Shown here: piece by piece, positions 3,075 to 9,501 of the stretch | Position numbering within the stretch: position 1 is the first letter of the stretch | Layout of the letters: every line of letters begins with the position of its first letter | NCBI RefSeq assembly: GCF_027359925.1 | Contig: NZ_CP114767.1 | Location: 744,001 to 808,000, forward strand | Direction: 5' to 3' | DNA from: Hymenobacter canadensis | GTDB taxonomy: Bacteria > Bacteroidota > Bacteroidia > Cytophagales > Hymenobacteraceae | Length of the DNA: 64,000 nt | Notes under the pieces: model-generated | Told to the model about the DNA's origin: nothing | Databases searched by the model: none | Seen by the model: only the letters and a program-made list of their open reading frames with translations | Program-made: the position numbers and the translations under genes

Positions 3075-3161
3075 ATGCTGAACCTAAACGCGAAACGCTT
3101 TATGACCATTAATCGTCCTGTCCAGGACGAGGTCGGGCGCTTTTGCGGAAATGAAAGGTAG
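3075..3161 (+). CDS. Leader ORF upstream of phhA copy 1
   Basis: 28 codons (begins MLNLNAKRF, ends CGNER) placed exactly like the Tyr-rich leader of the other phhA cassette: right behind the promoter box and before a terminator hairpin. It has no Tyr codon and only two Phe codons, so no control amino acid is apparent. It spans a small hairpin (3113-3120 with 3123-3130) and the antiterminator strand 3132-3138. Translation is inferred from position only; it may be a decayed leader. Confidence 0.4.
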   Translation: MLNLNAKRFMTINRPVQDEVGRFCGNER

Positions 3162-3233
3162 AACACAGCATGCTTCTCCTTCTCTGAAATCCACTTAAGA
3201 GCCCGACTCCTCCCCAGGAGCCGGGCTTTTTTT
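3113..3233 (+). promoter_or_regulatory. Attenuator-like alternative hairpins of phhA copy 1
   Basis: Three competing elements can be drawn: hairpin TCGTCCTG/CAGGACGA (3113-3130); antiterminator GTCGGGC (3132-3138) with GCCCGAC (3201-3207), seven perfect pairs; and terminator AGCCCGACTCCT (3200-3211) with AGGAGCCGGGCT (3216-3227), one mismatch, followed by seven T. The antiterminator and terminator share 3201-3207, so they exclude each other. The terminator ends about 16 nt before the phhA1 start codon. Confidence 0.6.
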
Positions 3234-3249: not shown

Positions 3250-3984
3250 ATGATACAGCAACACTACGACCGGTACACCACGCAGGATCAGCTGGTTTGG
3301 AAGGTATTGTTTGACCGCCAGACGGCCCTGCTGCACAAGCGCGCCTGCTCGGCGTTTGGCCGGGGGCTGGAGGCCGTGGGCTTCCACCGCAACGCCATTC
3401 CCAACTTCCAGGAAGTAAGCCAGCGCCTGCAGAAGGCCACTGGCTGGCAGCTGGAACCGGTGCAGGGCATGCTCAATGATGCCGAGTTCTTTGGGTTGCT
3501 GGCCCAGCGCAAGTTCCCGGCTACCGTCTGGATCCGGAGCATGGCCCAGTTCGACTTCATCGAGGAGCCCGACCTGTTCCACGGCGTGTTCGGCCACGTG
3601 CCGCTGCTCATGGACCAGGCCTTTGCTGATTTCCTGCACTTCCTCGGCCAGGTAGCCGCCCAGCACCTCGATGATGCCGTGGCCCTGGCCCGCCTGGAGC
3701 GGCTCTACGGCTTCACGGTGCAGTTCGGGCTGGTGGAGGAGCACGGCCAGACGCGTATGTACGGGGCCGGCCTGCTCTCCTCGTCGGGCGAAATTCACCA
3801 CTGCATCGGCGACATCACGCGCCGCTTTCCTTTCGACCTAGCTACCGTGCTGCACACGCCCTACAGCGAAGCCCACCTCCAAGATCAGTATTTCGTGCTC
3901 AACAGCTGGGCGCAGCTCACCGAAAGTGTAGCCGAGCTGGCCGCGTTGTTGTCGTCGGGCTGGGAGTTGCAGCCGGTGGAGTAA
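3250..3984 (+). CDS. Phenylalanine 4-hydroxylase-like protein, active-site-degenerate paralog
   Basis: 244 residues, aromatic amino acid hydroxylase catalytic domain of the bacterial short type. The two iron-binding His are present (H111 and H116 in FHGVFGHVP). The third iron ligand, normally Glu in YWFTVEFGL, is Gln here (YGFTVQFGL, Q158, codon CAG at 3721). The Trp that stacks on the substrate ring is Gly154, and the acidic residue after the first His is Gly112. Substrate-site WIR and GAGLLSS motifs remain. The intact frame argues against a dead pseudogene; a pseudoenzyme, a regulatory partner or a changed reaction is more likely. The promoter and leader lie immediately upstream, and a second, intact phhA is at 8059-8817. 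Confidence 0.9.
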   Translation: MIQQHYDRYTTQDQLVWKVLFDRQTALLHKRACSAFGRGLEAVGFHRNAIPNFQEVSQRLQKATGWQLEPVQGMLNDAEFFGLLAQRKFPATVWIRSMAQFDFIEEPDLFHGVFGHVPLLMDQAFADFLHFLGQVAAQHLDDAVALARLERLYGFTVQFGLVEEHGQTRMYGAGLLSSSGEIHHCIGDITRRFPFDLATVLHTPYSEAHLQDQYFVLNSWAQLTESVAELAALLSSGWELQPVE

Positions 3985-4435: not shown

Positions 4436-7400
4436 CTACTCTATTACCAAACGTTTGGTGGCTGGGCCAACGAGAGTGGACAATCGTAACGTGTAAACGC
4501 CCTGCGCCAGCCCGCTCACCGACAGCATCTGTGGCGTCCCCGCCGTGCCTGGTGCCCACGAATAGCTGCGAACCGCCTGCCCCAGCGCATTGTACAGCAC
4601 TGCCGTGCCCGGCACGGTGCGTAAAGTAGCAGGCAGAACCAGGGTGGCTGTGGTATGCGCCGGGTTGGGATACAGCTGAATCTGCTGGCCGGCCAGCGTG
4701 GCCGCGCTGGCCAGTATGCGGTTAGTGGTCAGGAGCAGCGAAAACCGCGGGCCGGTGGCGTCTGCGGCTTGGCGGAAGGCGTATACCGGCTGCTGGGCCA
4801 GATCGAGGCTGGTGCCGGTTTCTGCGTCGCGCAGGTAGGCGTAGAGCCCGGCCGGCAGGTTTAGCAGCTGTGCGGCTTCCAGTTGGTAGGAGCCCGATAC
4901 CGGTACGCGCACCTGCAACGGAATCAACACGTCGGCGCGGCTGAGGGCGGGCAGCCCGCTGATGCTCAACTGCTCGGAGCCCACGGGCAACGATAGGCTG
5001 GCCACGTTGCCGGTGGTCAGTTTGTAGGCGTCGAAGGCGGCATCAAAGGCAGATGTAGCGCCCTGCTCAAAATAGACGGTGGCAGCATCGCGCTGAGTAC
5101 CGTTGACCAGATCGAGCTGAAGCAGCGGGCGGGTTTCCAGAGCCGAAGGGCGGTTGAAGTCCGGGTTTTGGTAGGTGGTGAGGCGGGCTGCGTTGCTGAG
5201 CGACAGGCTGCCCGGCGTGCCGGCCGTGGTGGTTCGCACAAAGAAGCCCTGACCCGACGCAATGAAGCGGGCGTCGCCCACACCATTCACGAAGCTGCTG
5301 TAGCTGCCCGCATACGTCCCCGACGACTTGAACACGTACACCGCGTTATCAAGGCCCGAGAGGCCGGTCGTGGCCAGGGTCCAGTCGATGGGGGCGGGAT
5401 AGGGGTTGCCCAGCAGGTGCCAGCCCGAGGTAGGCTGCGTGCCGCGGGTTAGGCCGGTGCGCGCCACGGTCCCGCTCGTGAGCGTACCCACAAAATCGAC
5501 GGTGGCGGTGGCCGGTAGATTCACGGTGTAACCCACACCCGGCGTCATAGCCGCCGATAGGGTCGCCGGCGAAAACCAGCCCTGGTCGAAGCTGGCGGCT
5601 GTGGCATTCACCCGGCTTTCATCGTAGCCAAAAACCGTGGGGAAAGGCGTAACGGCGGCCGGCACCGGGGCCGTATTGTAGGCCGGATTCACAACCGGTG
5701 TAAAGTTGGCCGCGCCCAGGTCAGCTACTGTGGTATTGCTGACGGGCGCACTGTAGTGGCGGTAGCCGGCCCCGGCATTCTGGCTGGGGCTGATGTAGCG
5801 CTGCATCGTGGCGGCCCCGGTTACTACGGCGGAGCCGTTGTTTACTACCATGGCCGTGCCGGAAGCATCCGAAAGCAACGTTAGCGTCTGACTATTGGTA
5901 GCCAGGTTGCCATTCAGGGTCAGCAGGCGGCTCACGGCCAGCGGCCCGGTGAGCTGGGCGCCGGCCGGGCCAACGGTCAGGCCGGCCATGCTGATCAGGT
6001 TGCTGCCGCCCAGGCTTTGCTGGGCGGGGCCGCCCAGGACGAGGGCGCCCGCCCCGATGCAGCTGCCATTGTTCAGGAATGTGCCATTGAGCGTAAGAGT
6101 GCCGCCGCTTGCTACCGTGAGGCTGGCCCCGCTGGCAATGGTGAAGCTGTTGGCGCTGGCGGCGCTGCTCAGCACCGGCATCCGCACGGCTGCAGCCGGA
6201 ATCGTAACATCGGTGGTGGCCGTGGGTAACGTGCTGTTAGCCCAGTTGGCCGGGTCAGTATATACGGTGCTCACGCTGCCGTTCCACTGGCCGTTGGCCG
6301 TGGCGGGCGGATTTACGATGACGGTGATATTAAACTGCCGGCTTGCCACCGGCGTGCCGTTGTCGGTGGCCACAATGCTGATGGTGTTGGTGCCAACGTT
6401 GCACGGAGCCCCGGTTACACTCAGGCTCAGCACCGGGTTGATGCCCGCGCTAACGCTGGACGTGACGTTGCACAGCCCGTTGGTGTTCACGGCCAGTGTC
6501 ACGGCTTGGCCGGCTTCTGGACCCGAAAACTGCGGCGCAATGCTCACCGTCTGGCCCTGGTTGACGGTAATGGTATTGTTGAGCGGCAGATTGGTGGCGG
6601 AAGGCGGCAGGTTGCCGTTCGCGAAAACGCGGTAGGAGATGCATTGCTCATCCAGCCAGTTGACCCCGCTGGGGCTCACGTTGTCGGTGCGGATAGCGTT
6701 GTTAAGGTTGAAGCGGCCCGTCTGGATAAAGTCGCCATTGGTGCCGCGGTTAGCGCCCACCGTGGCCAGCGAGCCGCCGAAGCCATCTACCCCGTTGGAG
6801 GCGTCGCCGGTGGTCCACTGCATGTCGCCATAGGCAAACGTCACGTCATCCGTCGTGACACCCGCCGAGTTGGCCCGAATGACGATCTGGAAGGTGTTTT
6901 TCTTATCTGTTTTGCCGCTGAAGTAGCCTACGCGGTTCCAGGTGACCACCAATCGGTCGGGGTAGAGTTTGTACCAGATGCTGCCGCTACTGGCGGGGCG
7001 CGTGTCCACATCGGCCCAGAACCCCGCCACCATGGGCGTGACAATCGGGAAGCCATTGGCGGAAAACTGCGACACTGAAGCGCCAAACGACAGGTTGCCG
7101 TTGGTGTTGATGTATACGCCAGTGTAGGGCGTACCGAACAGCGTGAACGTGAAGCCCAGCGGAATCAGGCTGGACGAACCGTCGTCGTTGCGTGGCAGGT
7201 TGGTATAGCCGCCGGCGGCCGGAGCCGACACAGAATCCAGCGGCTCGAAGCACGCCGGCAGCTGCGGCGCGGCACTGCTGCCGAGGACCGGGCGGGCGGA
7301 AGACCGGGCCTGGGTGCCGGGCCTGATCAGGCGTTGCTTGCGCAAATCGTACTGCGGATCGAGCAGGGAAGGGTCGATGGCTCGGGACGTGGCTGTTTGA

Positions 7401-7483
7401 GCAGCAGCCTGCTGCCCGAGCGTTCCAGCCAGGCACAGTGCCAGCATCCATCGATAAAACAACACCAGAGGAAACGTGCGCAT
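4436..7483 (-). CDS. T9SS-secreted surface protein with nidogen-like domain
   Basis: 1015 residues. Signal peptide to about residue 29 (LCLAGTLGQQAAAQ); a NIDO-like region (about 85-285) with LGFTFTLFG, VYINTNGNLSFG, GFWADVDTR and QIVIRANSAG; then Ser/Thr/Asn-rich beta repeats, including a segment of the kind placed before adhesin domains (PANWANSTLPTATTDVTIP). The last ~80 residues are a type A T9SS sorting domain (LYPNPAHTTATLVLP, ALGQAVRSY, GLAQGVYTLRL, TKRLVIE). It is expected to be exported by Sec, moved across the outer membrane by T9SS and anchored or released. The upstream region (7484-7680) is strongly AT-rich and probably holds its promoter. Confidence 0.92.
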   Translation of the reverse strand: MRTFPLVLFYRWMLALCLAGTLGQQAAAQTATSRAIDPSLLDPQYDLRKQRLIRPGTQARSSARPVLGSSAAPQLPACFEPLDSVSAPAAGGYTNLPRNDDGSSSLIPLGFTFTLFGTPYTGVYINTNGNLSFGASVSQFSANGFPIVTPMVAGFWADVDTRPASSGSIWYKLYPDRLVVTWNRVGYFSGKTDKKNTFQIVIRANSAGVTTDDVTFAYGDMQWTTGDASNGVDGFGGSLATVGANRGTNGDFIQTGRFNLNNAIRTDNVSPSGVNWLDEQCISYRVFANGNLPPSATNLPLNNTITVNQGQTVSIAPQFSGPEAGQAVTLAVNTNGLCNVTSSVSAGINPVLSLSVTGAPCNVGTNTISIVATDNGTPVASRQFNITVIVNPPATANGQWNGSVSTVYTDPANWANSTLPTATTDVTIPAAAVRMPVLSSAASANSFTIASGASLTVASGGTLTLNGTFLNNGSCIGAGALVLGGPAQQSLGGSNLISMAGLTVGPAGAQLTGPLAVSRLLTLNGNLATNSQTLTLLSDASGTAMVVNNGSAVVTGAATMQRYISPSQNAGAGYRHYSAPVSNTTVADLGAANFTPVVNPAYNTAPVPAAVTPFPTVFGYDESRVNATAASFDQGWFSPATLSAAMTPGVGYTVNLPATATVDFVGTLTSGTVARTGLTRGTQPTSGWHLLGNPYPAPIDWTLATTGLSGLDNAVYVFKSSGTYAGSYSSFVNGVGDARFIASGQGFFVRTTTAGTPGSLSLSNAARLTTYQNPDFNRPSALETRPLLQLDLVNGTQRDAATVYFEQGATSAFDAAFDAYKLTTGNVASLSLPVGSEQLSISGLPALSRADVLIPLQVRVPVSGSYQLEAAQLLNLPAGLYAYLRDAETGTSLDLAQQPVYAFRQAADATGPRFSLLLTTNRILASAATLAGQQIQLYPNPAHTTATLVLPATLRTVPGTAVLYNALGQAVRSYSWAPGTAGTPQMLSVSGLAQGVYTLRLSTLVGPATKRLVIE

Positions 7484-7838
7484 AGTGACTTATGAGTTAA
7501 AGGTGAACGATGAAAAAGGATCGGTTGACAGCAAGCAGCCGGGTCGTCGCCAGCAAACAAAAGCTGCCAACGTAGTATTTAATTTGCATTAAATATATAA
7601 TTTATTTAATTATAAAATACCACATGTGTGTGTGGTGATAATTAATTGTCAGGCAATGATATAGTGCTTATGGGCCTCTCAGCAAGGCAGGCTACTCCAT
7701 AGTGGTAACAGCGCTGAGAATATCCAGGCAAAGGGGGGCGAAAACCGCACGGCCAAAACATTCAAGGCGACAAGGCTGTATTGAGGGCGAATCCAGCGTT
7801 TATAACTGGCCGCGAGTGCCGCCGAATCGGGCAGCCAA
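7484..7838. other. AT-rich divergent intergenic region
   Basis: Lies between the T9SS gene (minus) and the phhA2 leader (plus). The stretch 7575-7645 is very AT-rich compared with the rest of the window and contains a small inverted repeat around ACCAC/GTGGT (about 7620-7637). No gene is supported; open frames here lack any family similarity. Confidence 0.5.
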
Positions 7839-7869
7839 GTTGTTTGCCATGTTTTCCCGCTTACCTTTG
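7839..7869 (+). promoter_or_regulatory. Promoter of phhA copy 2
   Basis: Box TACCTTTG (7862-7869) fits TAnnTTTG exactly, with GTTG (7839-7842) 19 nt upstream as the -33 element. The box ends 6 nt before the leader ATG at 7876, so transcription should begin at or beside that ATG. Confidence 0.75.
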
Positions 7870-7875
7870 CTGCAC

Positions 7876-7965
7876 ATGCTGCTCTTCACGTCCCGCTATT
7901 ATTACGCCGCCACCTATTACGCTCCCCTCCGGAGCGGAGCGGCCACGGCGTATGCGAGGAACTGA
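7876..7965 (+). CDS. Tyrosine-rich leader peptide of phhA copy 2
   Basis: 29 codons: MLLFTSR, then YYYAATYY, then APLRSGAATAYARN. Five of eight consecutive codons (7897-7920) are Tyr and a sixth is near the end (7951). An upstream in-frame ATG at 7849 precedes the promoter box and is unlikely to be on the transcript. Position, length and codon content are those of an attenuation leader: it follows the promoter immediately, overlaps an antiterminator strand and precedes a terminator in front of the enzyme that makes Tyr from Phe. The inference is that ribosomes stall at the Tyr codons when charged tRNA-Tyr is scarce. Confidence 0.72.
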   Translation: MLLFTSRYYYAATYYAPLRSGAATAYARN

Positions 7966-8038
7966 GTAGAGCACATCACCCTCCCCAACGTCTTTCAAGC
8001 CTGCCTCCGCTTCCTGCGGAGGCAGGCTTTTTCTTTTT
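7920..8038 (+). promoter_or_regulatory. Tyr-responsive attenuator: alternative hairpins and terminator
   Basis: Element 1:2 is CGCTCC (7920-7925) with GGAGCG (7931-7936), starting at the last Tyr codon of the run. Antiterminator: 7931-7939 (GGAGCGGAG) with 8005-8013 (CTCCGCTTC), nine pairs including one G-U. Terminator: 14 bp perfect stem 7997-8010 with 8016-8029, followed by an 11-base T-rich tract (8028-8038), ending 20 nt before the phhA2 ATG. The antiterminator shares 7931-7936 with 1:2 and 8005-8010 with the terminator. A ribosome stalled on the Tyr run would cover the 1:2 left arm and favour the antiterminator. Confidence 0.7.
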
Positions 8039-8058
8039 CCACCTTTTCCTTTTTCGTT

Positions 8059-8817
8059 ATGCAGTCTGTTTCTGCCGCTCCCGTTGCTTCCGATGCCCTT
8101 CCGCTGCTCACCCAGGTCTATGCCGACTACACCGCCGCCGATCAGCACGTGTGGCAGCTGCTCTTTGACCGCCAGATGGCCCTGCTGCCCGGCCGCGCCG
8201 CCGAGGCGTTTCTGGAGGGTGTGCGCCGAGTGGGCTTCACCCGCGACGCCATCCCCGATTTCCGGGAGGTGAACCCCCGCCTGCAGGAGCTGACCAGCTG
8301 GGAGCTGGTGGTAGTGCCCGGCATCGTGGACGACGCCGTGTTCTTCCAACTGCTGGCCGACCGCAAATTTCCCGCTACCACCTGGCTGCGCACCCTCGAA
8401 CAGCTCGATTACCTCGAAGAGCCCGACATGTTCCACGACGTGTTCGGCCACGTGCCGCTGCTGACGGATGCCGGCTTCACCGACTTCCTGCAGAAACTGG
8501 GCGCGGCCGCCGTGCACCACGGGCAGCGTTGGCCCGGCACGCTGGAGCAGTTCACGCGCCTGTACTGGTTCACGGCCGAGTTTGGCCTGATTCAGCAGCC
8601 CGACGGCCTGCGCATCTACGGGGCCGGGCTGCTGTCGTCGCACGGGGAGGTGAAGTTCAGCCTCAGCGAAGCGCCCACCCGCCTGCCCTTCACCCTCGAC
8701 GGCGTGCTGGATACGCCCTTCGAGAAAGACAAATTCCAGGACCTCTACTTCGTGCTCACCGACATGCAGCAGCTCCCCGAAAGCCTGGCTCAGCTTCAGG
8801 CGCGTCTGCTGGAGTAG
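8059..8817 (+). CDS. phhA: Phenylalanine 4-monooxygenase
   Basis: 252 residues, bacterial short-type aromatic amino acid hydroxylase that converts Phe to Tyr with O2, Fe(II) and a pterin. All hallmark residues are present: EEPDMFHDVFGHVPLL (H126 and H131 as iron ligands), YWFTAEFGL (W170, and E174 as the third ligand), FPATTWLRT for substrate carboxylate binding, and GAGLLSSHGE. It is about 60% similar by eye to the degenerate copy at 3250-3984, and both have the same promoter-leader-terminator arrangement, so they are a duplicated cassette. No pterin carbinolamine dehydratase gene is nearby. Expression is probably limited by tyrosine attenuation. Confidence 0.96.
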   Translation: MQSVSAAPVASDALPLLTQVYADYTAADQHVWQLLFDRQMALLPGRAAEAFLEGVRRVGFTRDAIPDFREVNPRLQELTSWELVVVPGIVDDAVFFQLLADRKFPATTWLRTLEQLDYLEEPDMFHDVFGHVPLLTDAGFTDFLQKLGAAAVHHGQRWPGTLEQFTRLYWFTAEFGLIQQPDGLRIYGAGLLSSHGEVKFSLSEAPTRLPFTLDGVLDTPFEKDKFQDLYFVLTDMQQLPESLAQLQARLLE

Positions 8818-8850
8818 GTTTTGGGTGAGGAGGTGATGGACAATGTTAAA

Positions 8851-8992
8851 CGTCATGCAGAGGGGCAGACGAAGCATCTCGCGTGCGGACGTTGCTCCAT
8901 AACCCAGGGTTTAAACCCTGAGCTACGGAGCGGTTGAGGTTGCCAAATACTGCAGCCTCAGCACGCGAGATTCCTCGCAGGCTCGGAATGAC
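8851..8992. repeat. Palindromic repeat, family A copy 2 with insert
   Basis: Outer arms CGTCATGC...GAAGCATCTCGCGTGC and CAGCACGCGAGATTCCTCG...GGAATGAC are imperfect. The longer loop contains a perfect 16 bp palindrome, CAGGGTTTAAACCCTG, at 8905-8920. It lies between the convergent phhA2 and Mpo1-like genes. Confidence 0.7.
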
Positions 8993-9015
8993 GGGCTACT
9001 TTGTCCAACACCTCA

Positions 9016-9501
9016 TCAATACCGCCAGCCCAGCCGGCGGTAGATGAAATGCAGCAGCCACAACGGGCCGATGAGCAGAAACTGCAGGTCCTTGAGGAAG
9101 CTGGGCTTCTTGCCTTCCACCTTGTGGCCCCAGAACTGCCCAACCCAGGCCAGCACGAACACGATTAGGCACACAGCCCACAGCGGCAGAGCTGCCCCGG
9201 AATCCACCACGCGCAACCCCAGCGCCATAACCACCCACACTAGCACCATGCCCACCGCCAGCCGCCCCGAGAGGCGCACATAGTACGCCACGGCCAGCAC
9301 CATCACCACGGTAGCCCAGTTCAGCCACGGGCTGATATTCTGCACTGCCGCCGGTACCGGCACCGACCACAGCAGGCCCAGAATGGCGAACATTATCAGC
9401 GGGACGCACACCCAGTGCACCAGCTTGTTGGTGGGGTTCTGGTGGCTTTCGGCGTACTCGTTCAGCAGCCGCTGAACCGGAGAAACGAGGGCGGTAGACA
9501 T
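9016..9501 (-). CDS. Mpo1-like (DUF962) membrane protein
   Basis: 161 residues with four hydrophobic segments. Family features are the N-terminal YAESHQNPTNKLVHWVCVP with conserved His residues, and the C-terminal GHKVEGKKPSFLKDLQFLLIGPLWLLH. The yeast homolog Mpo1 is a 2-hydroxy-fatty-acid dioxygenase of alpha-oxidation; the conserved His residues at both ends suggest a similar Fe(II) site, but the bacterial substrate is unknown. A TACCTTTT box lies about 23 nt upstream on the minus strand (9524-9531). Confidence 0.88.
   Translation of the reverse strand: MSTALVSPVQRLLNEYAESHQNPTNKLVHWVCVPLIMFAILGLLWSVPVPAAVQNISPWLNWATVVMVLAVAYYVRLSGRLAVGMVLVWVVMALGLRVVDSGAALPLWAVCLIVFVLAWVGQFWGHKVEGKKPSFLKDLQFLLIGPLWLLHFIYRRLGWRY

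Follow-up and report, generated by a model that had tools for sequence, protein, structure and literature searches.

The window analysed here is a 64,000-nt stretch of Hymenobacter canadensis DNA (contig NZ_CP114767.1). Direct reading of positions 7862-8038 revealed, upstream of the phenylalanine hydroxylase gene p2, a promoter, a leader ORF of 29 codons whose peptide has the Tyr run YYYAATYY, and a 14-bp terminator (Table 1). A sequence-only reading had already described a Bacteroidota promoter, this ORF, a hairpin at 7920-7936 and the terminator with its T tract, and all of them were confirmed. An ATG at 7849, in frame with the leader ORF but upstream of the promoter box, is probably not used as a start. 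The window leader, like some other p2 leaders, carries one Phe outside the Tyr run.

Table 1. Features of the p2 leader locus (window positions) and, in the last three rows, of the pheA locus L134 (positions within that locus).
Feature	Position	Strand	Basis or remark
-33 TTG promoter element (likely)	7840-7842	+	sequence; fits a start site at 7874
-7 box TACCTTTG	7862-7869	+	sequence; predicted transcription start ~7874
Leader ORF, 29 codons, MLLFTSRYYYAATYYAPLRSGAATAYARN	7876-7965	+	sequence; stop TGA 7963-7965
Tyr control codons (putative), 7897-7905 and 7915-7920	7897-7920	+	five Tyr in eight codons in 30/30 relatives
Hairpin 7920-7925 x 7931-7936, unstalled state	7920-7936	+	folding, alignment pair counts
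Strand 2, outer antiterminator helix, partner 7999-8010	7934-7943	+	30/30 stalled folds; mostly invariant
Strand 2 continued, GGCGT	7947-7951	+	stalled: partner ACGTC 7988-7992; unstalled: partner Tyr codons
Strand 3, ACGTC 7988-7992 plus terminator 5' arm	7988-8010	+	stalled-state folds
Intrinsic terminator 7997-8010 x 8016-8029, T tract 8030-8038	7997-8038	+	sequence, folding, pair counts
p2, phenylalanine 4-hydroxylase	8059-8817	+	ATG 8059; family models, PDB match, PF00351
L134, first leader	~4975-4916	-	
L134, second leader	~4827-4750	-	
L134, pheA ATG	4658	-	

The gene 3' of the leader had been named as phenylalanine hydroxylase, and the family models agree: p2 exceeds the curated cut-offs of two phenylalanine 4-monooxygenase models (TIGR01267, 268.2 bits against 264.75; NF008877, 265.2 against 247), and its best PDB match is a phenylalanine-4-hydroxylase (E = 1.9e-66). 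The genome also encodes a pterin-4a-carbinolamine dehydratase and a second hydroxylase copy, p1 (window 3250-3984). An ORF of 1015 residues on the minus strand (window 4436-7483) separates p1 from p2; in the relatives fetched the gap between the two copies is a few hundred bases. In a tree of 89 rows, with a midpoint root used for drawing only, the p1 and p2 rows lie together on one side of a branch with values 98/94.

A hydroxylase match was found in 119 of 120 genomes of the genus, and in 30 the best match was p2-like (74-100% identity). Thirty distinct p2 leaders were aligned, namely that of the window, those of 20 named species and 9 others; the alignment row of L005 begins at an inner ATG. 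By eye, TAnnTTTG (21 cases) or TAnnTTTA (5 cases) ends 5-6 nt ahead of the leader ATG in 26 of the 30, the p2 leaders that do not fit this spacing being L005, L009, L095 and L111. The -7 box of Flavobacterium psychrophilum is reported to occupy -12 to -5 (PMC9723704). When this position is applied to the spacing of the 26 leaders, a 5' UTR of only 1-2 nt is predicted, and the leader ORF is probably translated from a leaderless transcript. Leaderless messages account for 5.5% in F. psychrophilum (PMC9723704), and 5' UTRs shorter than 10 nt for ~3.7% in Bacteroides thetaiotaomicron (PMC7366714).

Conservation of the Tyr run and of the alternative pairing in close relatives had been set beforehand as a check, and both are kept in 30/30 Hymenobacter p2 leaders. 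The Tyr run was present in all 32 p2 leaders read, with exactly five Tyr within eight codons in each of the 30 aligned. Two layouts predominate, YYYAATYY and YYAYAYY, and YYAGYAYY occurs once. Exchange between TAT and TAC is clear at two of the five Tyr places and slight at the others; the second-last Tyr codon is TAT in 30/30.

The RNA from 7876 to 8045 folds with a computed energy of -70.6 kcal/mol (z = -6.9), and none of 200 shuffled sequences was equally low. The unstalled state was derived from the 30 leaders with RNAalifold and pair counting. It consists of the terminator, the 7920-7936 hairpin and a helix in which Tyr codons (7903-7908) pair with 7947-7952. The first reading had taken the hairpin as the 1:2 helix; the hairpin is present, but the Tyr codons themselves serve as strand 1. 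As a whole the structure is paired in 99.5% of alignment cells (terminator, 99.8%; Tyr-codon helix, 98.3%). In 14 cells, belonging to 5 pairs, both sides changed; most of these are in the terminator, where 3 pairs did so, and in the 7920-7936 hairpin one C-G pair is U-A in 3 of the 30. None of 500 shuffles reached the covariation of the whole unstalled structure by any of five measures; related sequences may beat shuffles even without structure, but slid versions of this structure pair in only 34-49% of cells.

The stalled state was modelled by masking the RNA up to strand 2. All 30 masked leaders adopted the same outer helix, between GCGGAGCGGC and the terminator 5' arm, together with an inner hairpin. 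The antiterminator proposed from the sequence (7931-7939 with 8005-8013) is able to form; the helix common to all 30 folds is longer and lies partly elsewhere, at 7934-7943 with 7999-8010. In the window it extends through 7947-7951 with 7988-7992 and 7956-7959 with 7980-7983. In most leaders the inner hairpin is made by GGCGT with ACGTC or GTGTC with GACAC, followed by an apical helix near the stop codon; use of the region by these helices would account for the conservation of the stretch between stop codon and terminator.

The statistics of this second state are more modest. Although 99.7% of cells pair in the outer antiterminator helix, its sequence is near invariant, and 57 of 500 shuffles were as high in covariation. 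When the terminator 5' arm was simply tested for duplex formation with the remainder of the leader, against mononucleotide shuffles, 10 of 60 sequences gave p<=0.05; the test was unconvincing alone and was discarded as proof of the antiterminator. Two further tests found the pairing significant singly in 2 of 10 and 3 of 28 sequences, and the inner-hairpin energy had a mean z of -1.3. A fixed-column count of the middle antiterminator helix was also set aside, since it fits only 72% of cells because about half of the relatives use GTGTC with GACAC, in another register. Statistically, the 2:3 pairing is the weakest part of the model, and the antiterminator rests on conserved folding more than on covariation. 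With the complete stalled RNA the unconstrained minimum contained the terminator in 30/30 (for the window, -44.1 kcal/mol, against -25.7 kcal/mol with the antiterminator only). The choice must therefore be kinetic, made during transcription.

To extend the comparison beyond p2, a Tyr leader was defined as an ATG ORF with at least four Tyr in nine codons. A subset of the hydroxylase matches was scored, giving 130 further upstream regions: 70 came from a survey of the order and 60 from named loci, nearly all of which their record names place in the Cytophagales. The rule identified a Tyr leader in 40 of the 130, compared with 16 of 650 mononucleotide shuffles and none of 130 reverse strands; 90 had no Tyr leader by this rule. 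When near-copies were merged, 39 of 119 distinct upstream regions carried one. The 40 include one Hymenobacter p2 (L157), and L037 and L040, with fewer Tyr, were missed. Applied to other residues, the rule picked out 28 (Leu), 22 (Ser) and 17 (Ile) of the 130, with 60, 52 and 34 of 390 shuffles, respectively, against 7 shuffles for Tyr; only Tyr is far above chance. The idea of a wider occurrence in the phylum was dropped: outside the Cytophagales, 1 of 50 upstream regions had a Tyr leader (the 50 include L270, which is truncated by the end of its contig and was probably misread).

With L037 and L040 added by eye, and L080, whose leader lies 470 nt upstream, excluded, 49 of the 89 tree rows bear a Tyr label, which needs 5 changes on the tree (shuffled mean, 29.5). 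The labelled families are Hymenobacteraceae, Cesiribacteraceae, Marivirgaceae, Fulvivirgaceae, Roseivirgaceae, Flammeovirgaceae and Shiellaceae; the Cyclobacteriaceae and Bernardetiaceae rows of this tree have no Tyr label. In many of 31 leaders folded, as judged by eye, the Tyr codons pair with a downstream segment that could pair instead with a stretch just before the terminator. For 28 non-p2 leaders the combined p was ~5e-10 for Tyr codons with strand 2, and ~1e-3 for strand 2 with strand 3, the sequences being treated as independent in both cases. Upstream of three other hydroxylases (L030, L038 and L045; two Bernardetiaceae and one Cytophagales) there is a shared AT-rich stretch and a short hairpin with a T tract, with no Tyr-run leader; this element is perhaps another regulator.

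TyrA (PF02153) was absent from 6 of 30 p2 genomes and from 1 of 84 genomes without p2 that were at least 90% complete (Fisher p = 0.0013, kinship ignored); the single absence among the 84 is G006, in which there is only a weak partial match, scored as missing. TyrA is kept in the H. canadensis genome and in 24 of the 30 p2 genomes, and therefore p2 is not the sole Tyr route there. The proposal that p2 is the sole de novo Tyr source after TyrA loss was rejected: PheA is also absent from the six TyrA-less p2 genomes, which would need outside Phe. PheA alone was missing from p2 genome G114 and from four others (G020, G042, G056 and G066). Echinicola belongs to the same order as Hymenobacter. For Dyella and Echinicola, the GapMind authors propose from mutant fitness that Tyr is made with the help of the hydroxylase, and a catabolic role in Cupriavidus is cited alongside (PMC7311316).

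Hydroxylases without a Tyr leader were preceded by 21 long ORFs, of which 13 were tested, 9 of these having been chosen because they looked like aromatic genes. Two were tyrA, seven encode DAHP synthase, and the other four comprise one flavin-reductase-like, one hydroxyphenylpyruvate-dioxygenase-like and two DNA polymerase delta ORFs. The tested ORFs end 4-330 nt ahead of the hydroxylase match. The hydroxylases behind tyrA or DAHP synthase are those of L027, L048, L054, L058, L064, L066, L073, L078 and L079.

The pheA operon of the same genome (L134) contains pheA and tyrA, assigned by Pfam, and an aminotransferase and a DAHP synthase gene named by eye. It is preceded by two tandem mixed Phe/Tyr leaders (MLQPTARFYFSYCFYYATA and MTILRYFFTYAYFFYWKKPAPCCLS), each followed by a terminator-like hairpin. 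Mixed Phe/Tyr leaders lie ahead of pheA in 21/21 Hymenobacter genomes (H. canadensis and 20 chosen among the 106 that have a PheA match), in tandem in 16 of the 21. Tyr-only codons at a Tyr-only enzyme and Phe/Tyr codons at a Phe and Tyr operon fit codon-tuned sensing. The upstream region of tyrS in the same genome was considered as a further candidate and dropped, no Tyr leader being seen there by eye. At 2340-2430 of L134, just 5' of tyrA, there is a repeat-like inverted repeat with several sub-threshold Rfam matches on both strands.

Other hydroxylase genes of the genus have leaders of a different content. Ahead of p1 (at 3250) lie a near-leaderless ORF (MLNLNAKRFMTINRPVQDEVGRFCGNER; window 3075-3161) and a terminator (3201-3226), with an inner hairpin and an antiterminator seen by eye only. 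In 19/19 relatives the p1 leader ORF starts 4-8 nt past the -7 box and has no more than one Tyr per nine codons. Further Hymenobacter hydroxylase types (L123-L133 and L135-L153) have conserved short ORFs, with MRHQ.VN, MNRHQLVI or MMNQSAKCFCLTN, which a script placed 5-8 nt past a -7-like box in 11/11, 14/15 and 4/4 loci of three types. Three of nine fetched genus hydroxylases of the 57-60% type (L116, L121 and L122) have neither a Tyr leader nor a terminator. A wider scenario, doubtful as a whole, is that in Cytophagales the supply of aromatic amino acids is sensed by leaderless leader peptides, with codons retuned from gene to gene. The ancestral hydroxylase would have had a Tyr-only leader, and p2 would have kept the Tyr run after duplication in Hymenobacter. 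P1 and the other types would have kept the near-leaderless ORF and terminator and swapped the run for MRHQ.VN, MNRHQLVI or KCFCLTN; these may respond to a different signal, possibly acting as arrest peptides with free Phe as the inducer.

Because of the anatomy of the locus, its conservation, the covariation of the unstalled structure and the codon contrast with the pheA operon, we propose that the p2 leader is a tyrosine-specific, ribosome-mediated transcription attenuator of a Tyr-supplying hydroxylase, with a probability of roughly 0.87. Within this model we infer the start site, ribosome stalling, a kinetic choice between the two folds and regulation by tyrosine. RNA polymerase would start about two bases before the leader AUG, and the ribosome would follow at once on the leaderless message. 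When Tyr-tRNA is plentiful, the ribosome would pass the Tyr codons and reach the stop codon, within the apical portion of the antiterminator; a ribosome there would keep the antiterminator open, the terminator would form, and transcription would end near 8030-8038. When Tyr-tRNA is short, the ribosome would halt on the Tyr codons and take away strand 1 (the Tyr codons and CTCC). The freed strand 2 (GCGGAGCGGC..GGCGT) could then pair with strand 3 (ACGTC..GCCTGCCTCCGC) before the 3' arm of the terminator is made, and the hydroxylase gene would be transcribed and Phe converted to Tyr. The control codons match the product of an enzyme classed as Tyr-making. The interpretation given in the sequence-only reading is thus supported, as far as sequence comparison can speak to it.

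Three other explanations were weighed. The leader and its hairpins could form a constitutive partial terminator that sets a basal level with no tyrosine sensing. The terminator is indeed strong and favoured in the computed equilibrium, but such an element leaves unexplained the Tyr-only codons, the Phe/Tyr codons at pheA, the Tyr-codon helix and the recurrence across the order, and we consider it improbable. Alternatively, the nascent leader peptide could act as an arrest peptide, stalling the ribosome on a ligand and not according to Tyr-tRNA supply, in the style of TnaC and free Trp. In favour of this, the Hymenobacter leaders keep their peptide sequence after the Tyr run (RSGAA or GSGAA in most); however, the conserved SGAA codons coincide with RNA strand 2, and between genera the peptides vary (YYYAATYY, YYAYAYY, HYYYYYH, YYYYYYY, YHYHYYY) while Tyr density stays, so that we give this model little credit. 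A riboswitch that binds a tRNA or a ligand (a T-box or another kind), with the ORF incidental, would suit a structured 5' region with a terminator, but it deserves hardly any credence, as conservation extends to the ORF and its near-leaderless start and an Rfam search of window 6500-9500 (E<=1) gave no T-box and no known amino-acid leader, its sole match, an HCV element below the gathering score, being taken as noise.

The tyrosine-specific attenuator proposed here would, like E. coli attenuators of the trpL and pheL type, work through alternative helices. With the trp, his and phe leader attenuators of Proteobacteria (E. coli trpL and pheL; PMC11802643) it also has in common a control-codon ORF, a terminator and a gene for the matching amino acid. 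It differs from trpL and pheL in its Tyr-only codons, the pterin-dependent hydroxylase that it precedes, the predicted leaderless ORF, and the use of the Tyr codons as strand 1. The Bacteroid-trp RNA (RF01692), presumably a Trp leader serving Trp genes, gave no Rfam match in window 6500-9500. It comes from the same phylum and is described as a candidate cis-regulatory RNA (PMC2864571). AroR, the leader of the aroF operon in Corynebacterium glutamicum, is similar in having aromatic codons (Phe-Tyr-Phe) and stalling, whereas it controls a DAHP synthase and reportedly reacts to a shortage of Phe but not to Tyr availability (PMC11802643). Leader-peptide attenuation at amino-acid operons of F. psychrophilum is of the same general kind and in the same phylum, although the words tyrosine and phenylalanine are both absent from the main text of that paper (PMC9723704). 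The first reading knew of no described Tyr-codon leader for a phenylalanine hydroxylase; likewise, among the matches listed from the open-licence literature, with subscription papers outside this scope, we found no Tyr-only leader and no phenylalanine hydroxylase attenuator. The mechanism is of a known kind, and Tyr-only sensing for a phenylalanine hydroxylase appears new within that literature. If the proposal is correct: i) this would be the first tyrosine-only leader attenuator findable there, present in seven families of one order; ii) a bacterial phenylalanine hydroxylase would be set up to supply tyrosine, as the animal enzyme is; and iii) the Tyr-only and Phe/Tyr leaders of one genome would form a natural set for studying how codon content sets the specificity of attenuators, probably on leaderless messages.
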